23,348 nt of DNA, from the NCBI GenBank assembly GCA_013416795.1, contig RQSC01000023.1, positions 91,861-115,208 of the forward strand, given 5' to 3'. Positions 5,385 through 18,219 of this stretch are shown in pieces. Numbering within the stretch: position 1 is the stretch's first letter; each line of letters opens with the position of its first letter. The translations under genes were made by a program, and so were the position numbers. The notes under the pieces were generated by a model. The model worked only from the letters and a program-made list of their open reading frames with translations. It did no database searches and was not told the origin of the DNA. Source of the stretch: Prasinococcaceae sp. CCMP 1430. Its lineage: Eukaryota > Prasinodermophyta > Palmophyllophyceae > Prasinococcales > Prasinococcaceae.

Positions 5385-5385
5385 N
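5385..5385. other. Single N, probable contig join
   Basis: An isolated N separates an ELP3-coding stretch from an HTTM-coding stretch in a different frame. The gap length behind it is unknown, and the two sides should not be assumed contiguous. Confidence 0.8.
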
Positions 5386-12491: not shown

Positions 12492-12799
12492 ATTCGCAAT
12501 GTGGTAGGAGCGCGTACGTACCTAGCGCCATCTCGCGTGCGAGCAAACAACTTTTTTTGGAACATGGCGGGGGTGTTGAGGGAGGGGCCGTTGGCAGTCA
12601 TTGCGCCACACCGCCTCTCCAGATCGCCGCGCCTTTCTGGCAGCGCACGTGCGAGGGTGGAAGGGGAGGGATCGGGCGGCGGGCGGCACCGCAAGGCCTC
12701 ACGAATCTCGCCGAGACGCTGCAGGCGTCCCCGCCCCACGCGGCTCGCGCTGCATCCACACTCGATCGATTGTTGCGTCGCCGCCCGCAGGCGACATCG

Positions 12800-14499
12800 A
12801 TGCCGCAGAAGCGCGCCCGCGGCGACGTGCCCGAGGAGGCGCCCGCTGATGGCACGGCTGGCGCCGGGAGCCCCGCGGCTCGCGCCGGGCCGGCGCCGTC
12901 GTACCCCTACTGGGCGAGCGCTGACTGCCGCGGCGTGCTGACCAACGGAGGCGGTTTCCCAGAGGTCGGCATTCCGCCCTCCCACGCATACGATCGCGTG
13001 CGTCAGTACAGCCTGCTGGACTTCCAACCCTCGCTCAACACGTCGTCATACGTGAACGTCATGGCCGATCAGTACGAGCACGAGCTCTTCGCGCTGGGCA
13101 GCCGCATCAACATAGCCGATCAGACCATTTATACGGGCTCGTTTGAGCTGCACAACGACGCGCTGGCAATGGTCGCAGACCTTTGGAACGCGCCCATGGG
13201 CGCGCGCGTCGACGGCGGGCCATACCCCGGCTCGCAGACCGTGGGCTCGACGGAGGCGTGCCTGCTCGCCGGCCTTGCCCTCAAGTTTCGCTGGCGTGCC
13301 TGGCGCGCCAAGCTCCATCCCGGCGAGGAGCAGCCTCCGATGCCCAACCTGGTGATCAGCACTTGCTTCCAGGCGTGCTGGGAGAAGCTCTTCAAGTACA
13401 TGGACATCGTCCCGCGCATAGTCGCGCCCACGATGGACATGACGCTGGATCCCGCAAAGGTGGCCGAGGCGTGCGACGAGAACACCATGGGCGTCGTCTG
13501 CATTCTAGGCAACCATTATTCTGGAGCCTACGATCCGGTGAAGGAGGTGTCGGACGTGCTCGACAAGTTGAACGCCGAGAAGGGCTGGCAGATCGGCATC
13601 CACGTCGACGCGGCGTCCGGTGGCTTCATCGCCCCCTTCATCGCCAAAGACCTCGTGTGGGACTTCCGCGTGCCCAACGTGCTATCCATCTCGGCCTCGG
13701 GCCACAAGTTCGGCCTGTCGTGCTGTGGCACGGGCTGGGTGGTGTGGCGCCAGCGCGAGGACCTCGCCGAGCACGTGGCGATCTCAGTGAGCTACCTCGG
13801 CGGCGTCGGGGAGTCCTACACGCTCAACTTCAGCCGGCCCGCGACTGGAAGCTACGTGCAGATGTACAAGTTCCTGATGCTGGGGCGCGAGGGCTACTCC
13901 ATGGCCGTGAGGAACCAGATGGACACCGCCGCGCGCATTCGCGCGGGGCTCAAGGCCATGATGGGCCCCGACGGCGTCACGCCGCGCTTCGTCATCCTGG
14001 ATAAGAGCGACAGAGCCCCCGACGGCTGCCTGCCCGTCGTCTGCGCGATGCTCAACCCCGATCTGAAGTTGCCCTACGACGACTGCGACCTGTACGTGCG
14101 CCGCAACGCCGCGCCCGCACGATGGAGTGCGCGCACGTCGCGAAGGGCGTGCTCACCCTGACGCTCTCGCCGCCGCCCCTTTCGCTCCCTTTCCGCCAAT
14201 GCGCCTACCGCAGGCAGCACGTGTGCGCCGAGCGCCACTGGTACATATCGGGCTATCACTTTAGCTACAAGCACCCCATCACGGAGCAGACGCTGCCGCT
14301 CTGCAGCGACGTGCCTGCGGAGCAGTCGCTCTTCCGTGTGGTTGTCAAGGCCAACCTGACGCGGCAGCTCGCCGAGGATCTGTTGGTGGCCGTGCGCGAG
14401 ACGGTCGTGCTGATGGACGAGGCCGGCGCCGGCTTCCGCGATATGCACCGCAAGAAGGTGCCGCGCCCCGTTCGCGGGCGCCACGTGGCCGCGTGCTGA
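12800..14499 (+). CDS. GAD: Glutamate decarboxylase (PLP-dependent, group II)
   Basis: This enzyme decarboxylates L-glutamate to GABA and CO2 with pyridoxal phosphate. Exon 1 is 12800-14091, the intron 14092-14213 (donor GTACGT, acceptor CCGCAG), and exon 2 is 14214-14499; together 525 residues. After a ~40-residue low-complexity N-terminus, the protein follows the family closely. It shows SLNTSSYVNVMADQYEHEL, the segment GSTEACLLAGLALKFRWR, ISTCFQACWEKLFKYMDI at the cofactor ring, and HVDAASGGFIAPF with the pyridine-N Asp. The PLP Lys is K303 in SISASGHKFGLSC, followed by the mobile YLGGVGESYTLNFSRPA segment. These strings match the bacterial GadB/plant GAD type better than animal GADs. The chosen donor gives DCDLQHVCAERHW, which keeps family spacing (DL...LRERGW); the alternative GTGCGC donor would add one residue. 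The ATG at 12800 follows a CAG and may be preceded by a 5' UTR intron. No plant-like C-terminal calmodulin-binding domain is evident. Confidence 0.93.
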
Positions 14500-17097: not shown

Positions 17098-17963
17098 ATG
17101 GCGTCGCCCGCGCGGACGCTCTACGACTTCGAGATAGGGAGGCTGGGCGCGGGCACGCGCGAGGCGCCCGTCGCGGGCGGGCCGCTCGACCTCGGGGCCG
17201 CCAAGGGCAAGGTGGCGCTCGTGGAGAACGTCGCCGGCCTATGAGGCACGACCGTCAAGGACTATCTCGACCTCGGGGCCGCCAAGGGCAAGGTGGCGCT
17301 CGTGGAGAACGTCGCCGGCCTATGAGGCACGACCGTCAAGGACTATCTCCAGATGAACGAGCTAGTCGACAAGTTCGGCAGCGAGGACTTCACCATCCTC
17401 GCGTTTCCGTGCAACCAGTTTTACCGCCAGTCGCAGGACACCGACCTCGAGACGCTTTCCCTGCTGAAGCATGTGCGCCCCGGCAACGGCTACGTGCCGA
17501 AGTTCGAGCACTCCACCAAGATTGACGTCAACGGCGCGAATGCCCACCCCATATTCAAGTGGCTGCGCGAAACGCTGCCGACCCCGGTCGACGACGCTGG
17601 CAAAGTGATCATGCGAGACCACACGTGCATTGCGTGGGACCCCGTCGAGCGCAACGACATGTGCGTCGCGCAGCTCGCTCCGCCACCGCGCGCGTCGGTG
17701 GAATTCGCTGGCGCGTGCCGCGACGCCTCGCGCGCAGTAGGCTCCCTCTGACATCTCGCTTGTGGTCCCGCACGCCGCGTGCGTCGCTGGCGCCTGGTGT
17801 GCTTTGCGCTCGCTGCTGCGCGCAAAGCTCGTGGAACTTCGAGAAGTTCCTCGTGAACCAGAAGGGCGTGCCCGTGCGCCGCTACTCGCCCAAGTTCGCC
17901 ACCATCGACATCGCTGCCGACATTGAGGCGCTCATCAAGGGCGGCCCCGATGCGCTCGCCTAA
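17098..17963 (+). CDS. GPX: Selenocysteine glutathione peroxidase (GPx1-like) with duplicated active-site segment
   Basis: This enzyme reduces hydroperoxides with glutathione. The ATG at 17098 lies in GCCGCCATGG. Exon 1 ends at 17660, the intron is 17661-17827 (donor GTGCGT, acceptor CAAAG), and exon 2 ends with TAA at 17963. The frame reads through UGA at 17242-17244, in NVAGL-U-GTT, exactly where GPx selenocysteine lies. The same segment is repeated, giving a second UGA at 17323-17325 (codons 49 and 76). The remaining tetrad residues follow: Gln107 in FPCNQF, and Trp190 and Asn191 in [37 protein letters not shown] and [13 protein letters not shown] match animal GPx1-type enzymes. They include the HPIF.WLRE loop that monomeric GPx4/plant types lack. 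Genomic length is 232 codons; removing one 81-bp copy gives 205, the normal GPx1 size. No transit peptide is evident, so the cytosol is likely. A SECIS candidate lies 200 nt past the stop. Confidence 0.93.
17185..17346 (+). repeat. Exact 81-bp tandem duplication (2 copies) spanning the Sec codon
   Basis: Positions 17185-17265 and 17266-17346 are identical by eye and encode [27 protein letters not shown] twice in frame. The unit includes AAG|GTGGCG. The interval 17212-17292 therefore begins GT, ends AG and is exactly one unit long. Confidence 0.97.
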
Positions 17964-18164
17964 GCGTCGCGAGGCGGCGTGCCCGGGGCGATTACTTGCC
18001 TCGATGCCAATGCCGCGCGCGACCCAGCAGGGACATTGCTCATGCGGCGGGGCTTGTCCGGAATAGGCGCTGTACGCAACGCTCAAGTCCTCTGCGCGGG
18101 ACACCCCTGCGCACAACTGCCAGCTTCAACGTACGTGAGCCGATCTCATACGCCACGCGACCAC

Positions 18165-18208
18165 ATGACGGCACCGCCACAAATCCTCAGAGGACGGCGG
18201 ACGCCCGA
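18165..18208 (+). promoter_or_regulatory. Candidate SECIS element (form 2) of the glutathione peroxidase mRNA
   Basis: A SECIS recruits SBP2/EFSec so that UGA is read as selenocysteine. Here the quartet ATGA is at 18165-18168 and the matching GA at 18207-18208. Helix II pairs GGC (18170-18172) with GCC (18203-18205), and CCGCC (18174-18178) with GGCGG (18196-18200). The unpaired AAA is at 18181-18183, 12 nt after ATGA, the usual spacing. A mini-stem TCCT/AGGA (18184-18187 with 18191-18194) caps it, as in form 2 SECIS. Lower-stem support is ACCA (18160-18163) with TGGT (18216-18219). It was found by eye, with no energy calculation. Confidence 0.75.
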
Positions 18209-18219
18209 CAAGTTATGGT

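Follow-up and report, generated by a model that had tools for sequence, protein, structure and literature searches.

GPX1-type selenium-dependent glutathione peroxidases (GPx; PF00255; PDB 2f8a and 1gp1) have a selenocysteine (Sec) in the motif ENVAxLUGTT, a Gln in FPCNQF, a Trp-Asn pair in WNFEKF and the region KHVRPG-GY-P-F. A single SECIS element is able to serve several Sec residues that lie in one region (PMC3737529), and in SelL one SECIS serves more than one Sec (PMC3316567). In ATP2A1, in fission yeast genes and in potato RdRp, introns have arisen where an exon segment containing AGGT was duplicated in tandem in the genome (PMC4974935). Here, we describe a GPx gene that shares the above motifs with GPX1-type enzymes but, unlike them, has strand beta-1 and the Sec loop twice, with a second UGA 27 codons upstream.

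The gene lies in a window of 23,348 nucleotides (the whole stretch of DNA that was analyzed), which covers positions 91861-115208 of contig C68 in a 24.5-Mb eukaryotic assembly of 145 contigs. The GC content of the window is 66-73%, and the genome encodes chlorophyll a/b-binding proteins of the green-lineage type. In genome size, GC content and selenoprotein richness, it is similar to Prasinoderma coloniale (25.3 Mb, 69.8% GC; PMC7455551), but the two assemblies have different numbers of contigs. Single N characters occur at window positions 5385 and 16732 and are also scattered over other contigs. A gene for a pyridoxal-dependent (glutamate-type) decarboxylase occupies window positions 12557-14490, with an intron at about 14095-14219.

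When UGA was read as Sec, exon 1 of the GPx gene was open from the ATG at 17098 to 17660 (all features of this gene are on the + strand) and matched PF00255. A spliceosomal intron was placed by homology at 17661-17827 (CAT|GTGCGT...GCAAAG|CTC), a position common to the gene and a paralogue described below, and homology and translation placed exon 2 at 17828-17963 (SWNFEKFL...GGPDALA, stop TAA). The two exons joined give a conceptual protein of 232 amino acids, in agreement with the chain of about 232 residues in the original prediction. Translation from the ATG put the first in-frame UGA at 17242-17244 (Sec 49) and the second at 17323-17325 (Sec 76), the spacing of 27 codons that had been predicted. 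The assignment to the GPx family also held: the PF00255 match scored 113.7 bits against a curated cut-off of 27, and both UGAs fall at the Sec position of the family.

The conceptual protein has the catalytic residues in LUGTT, FPCNQF (Gln) and SWNF (Trp-Asn). The Gln and Trp-Asn motifs occur once each, and the Sec strand-loop occurs twice. The Pfam GPx domain was aligned at residues 56-157, that is, on the second copy of the doubled segment. AlphaFold2 models of exon 1 only had a mean pLDDT of 41.8 for the tandem form and 51.1 for the single-unit paralogue, values too poor for judging the thioredoxin fold, which has one catalytic strand-loop; in this modeling the alignment itself favored copy 2. 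Foldseek returned GPX1 first for both of these poor models, from which the placement of copy 1 is not reliable.

The doubled segment is an 81-bp unit, both copies of which lie in exon 1. Copy 1 was placed at 17185-17265 (residues 30-56) by repeat search and translation, and copy 2 at 17266-17346 (residues 57-83), where it adjoins the downstream alpha-1 helix, by repeat search and the Pfam alignment. TRF gave the 81-nt units 100% matches and a score of 330, which bears out the two identical, in-frame units of the original prediction. The repeat match is 84 nt long because copy 2 is followed by CTC (17347-17349), the same 3 bases with which the unit starts. From the repeat match and comparison with the paralogue, this CTC was assigned as microhomology at the duplication breakpoint. 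The single unit of the paralogue also has CTC at both ends, and the CTC...CTC arrangement has the look of a microhomology-mediated duplication.

The single-unit GPx paralogue (203 amino acids) was identified by homology at positions 156-917 of contig C3, where the gene starts 156 bases from the contig end, and its SECIS lies at 1116-1178. Its intron position and SECIS are as in the window gene. The closest solved structure to this paralogue by sequence was human GPX1 (2f8a, E 1e-39), aligned over the KHVRPG-GY-P-F region. The coding sequences of the window gene and the paralogue are 89% identical, with a dN of 0.08 and a dS of 0.29 (NG86), which indicates that both lines have been under constraint by purifying selection. 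Since the paralogue has one unit within the same gene structure and the same SECIS arrangement, the extra unit appears to have arisen at the window locus.

The two copies in the window differ from each other at 0 of 81 positions and from the unit of the paralogue at 8 of 81, so the duplication would be much younger than the paralogue split unless the copies have been homogenized. This supports the earlier suggestion of either a very recent event or an assembly artifact. Across the genome, the search returned only three copies of the Sec-loop sequence, two at the window locus and one in the C3 paralogue; thus, no second, single-unit version of the window locus was found in the genome. Taken as a whole, the 81-bp doubling is most likely a real, recent, in-frame duplication and probably a young mutation.

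One rival, which we consider unlikely, is an assembly or sequencing artifact in which one real unit of 81 bp was doubled by an unmerged overlap or a misplaced join. Such an error would fit the exact identity of the units, and their length equals 81, a common assembly k-mer length. The single Ns, both in the window and in other contigs, resemble scaffold joins and so mark the assembly as a scaffolded draft. However, no N lies between the two units, and the single-N joins that were examined had no flanking duplicated segment, low-complexity sequence aside. Nor did we find another exact tandem duplication with a period of at least 25 in the 203 kb of the assembly sampled (about 178 kb readable), so that the repeat exceeds what chance would give. 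The 3-bp microhomology at the breakpoint is also expected of a biological duplication, whereas in an artifact it would be coincidental.

Alternatively, the duplication may have produced a nascent intron, in which case 81 nt would be spliced out and the product would be an ordinary one-Sec GPx of 205 amino acids. The original prediction had considered neither this potentially spliceable AG|GT nor the single-unit paralogue. Each unit has one AGGT (at 17210 and at 17291), and the duplicated AG|GT provides a candidate donor at 17212 in copy 1 and a candidate acceptor at 17292 in copy 2. When GT..AG pairs were enumerated, the candidate intron at 17212-17292 (AAG|GTGGCG...GGGCAAG|GT) was the only pair that restores the exact single-unit protein, and its removal returns the ancestral frame and sequence. 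An alternative acceptor at 17286 would give an in-frame intron of 75 nt (17212-17286) and the single-unit protein with two extra residues, GK. The mechanism has the precedents cited above (PMC4974935), and the neighboring intron of the window gene also ends in AAAG. In another GPx gene of this genome, on contig C11, the corresponding Lys|Val site is interrupted by a real intron (AAG|GTGAGA...CGGCAG|GTT). That gene is of the Cys type and lies on the minus strand of C11:238300-240300, around 1514-1278 of that segment.

The splice signals, however, argue against removal of the 81 nt. With a donor matrix built from 9 introns only, the candidate donor AAG|GTGGCG scored -2.85, while the 9 matrix introns, each left out in turn, scored from -1.1 to 7.9. 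All 10 homology-placed donors in this genome have G at +5, most of them being GTGCGT, whereas the candidate has C. The candidate donor is thus without the strength usual in this genome, and no clear pyrimidine tract is present. The presence of AGGT is itself weak evidence, since 31% of the 84-nt segments drawn at random from the paralogue coding sequence (162/529) contained it. On this evidence, we regard splicing of the repeat as unlikely, and the weak donor was counted in favor of both units being kept.

A eukaryotic SECIS was found at 18157-18219, where the original prediction had located none; it has ATGA, an apical AAA with a small upper hairpin, and GA, and was recognized by RF00031 and by conservation in the paralogue. 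Its score was 18.7 bits over the full model, under the gathering score of 35, and the SECIS at the same place in the paralogue scored 20.6 bits. The two elements are 90.5% identical, compared with 77.5% and 56.5% for the flanking 3'UTR. GPx genes with an in-frame TGA at the Sec position are also present on contigs C89, C135, C76 and C75, which brings the Sec-type GPx genes in the genome to at least 6, counting the window gene and the C3 paralogue. The genome also encodes the Sec synthase SepSecS.

A tRNA-Sec was not found in the genome by an RF01852 search and a pattern search (with ARAGORN run on most pattern matches), a tool set that can miss it. Because several GPx genes here have an in-frame UGA at the Sec site, we took the missing tRNA-Sec as a limit of the search. 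Four RF01852 matches were rejected as tRNA-Sec since ARAGORN identified them as Leu and Ser tRNAs. These false matches came from a tRNA gene cluster (Leu, Ser, Cys, Asp, Trp, Glu, Asn and Gly) at about 218000-296000 of contig C136, which is probably organellar or bacterial. A pair of pattern matches recurs on contigs C41 (13568-19462) and C98 (217560-223454), unchanged in sequence and in its 5,860-base spacing, which suggests that this segment was duplicated or assembled twice and is perhaps organellar.

The combined evidence supports the window GPx as a putative selenoprotein gene. The weakest reading, that the UGAs are chance or stop codons in a region that is not a selenoprotein gene, would fit the SECIS score under the Rfam threshold and the tRNA-Sec that was not located, but it is very hard to reconcile with UGA at the GPx Sec site in the window gene, the paralogue and several other GPx genes, with a SECIS conserved between the paralogues and with the presence of SepSecS.

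To the reading in which both units are kept, we assign about an even chance: a recent, microhomology-mediated duplication of 81 bp in the first exon of one member of a GPX1-type paralogue pair of a GC-rich green alga, with both units retained in the mRNA. In the proposed mechanism, the 3-bp CTC microhomology would have led to the tandem duplication inside exon 1, and the mRNA would carry both units. The single SECIS would then direct Sec insertion at both UGAs, with a lower total yield, because the efficiencies of the two readthrough steps would multiply. By analogy with the systems described above, one SECIS serving both UGAs is possible in principle. Since the UGAs are upstream of the exon junction, the mRNA may also be degraded more readily. 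In the protein, copy 2 would form the catalytic strand-loop-helix because this copy continues without a break into alpha-1 and the remainder of the domain; the 27 residues of copy 1 would be inserted before it.

The likely outcome of this retention of both units would be either a two-Sec protein at low abundance or an impaired gene, and the doubled gene would be tolerated because normal enzyme would still be made from the single-unit paralogue. Most of the weight given to retention goes to a gene that is impaired or gives a low yield and has the paralogue as backup. That the gene is in fact translated into a GPx with two active-site Sec residues 27 residues apart, served by one SECIS and with the extra Sec strand-loop as an insertion, seems to us improbable. 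No paper on a GPx with two Sec residues was found in the open-access literature, where absence is not proof.

If the duplication is real, the locus would capture an internal duplication in a selenoprotein gene at a very early age, and the same genome would provide a single-unit control. It would test how one SECIS handles two nearby UGAs and whether a GPx can still fold with its active-site segment present twice. If the repeat is spliced, it would show the birth of an intron from coding sequence.

As in the known tandem-duplication introns, the segment duplicated in tandem in the exon at this locus contains AGGT and could be removed without a change to the peptide. Unlike those introns (PMC4974935), the candidate intron in the window has a donor that is weak for its host genome. 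SelL, the two-Sec SelW and the two-Sec MSP, in all of which the Sec residues are near each other, and the E. huxleyi GST-MSRA fusion have more than one in-frame UGA per mRNA, as the window gene does, and SelL, like the window gene, has one SECIS. The E. huxleyi GST-MSRA selenoprotein is a gene fusion, unlike the internal duplication in the window. Unlike in these multi-Sec selenoproteins, the second UGA of the window gene, a putative Sec codon, comes from an exact internal duplication of the active-site segment.
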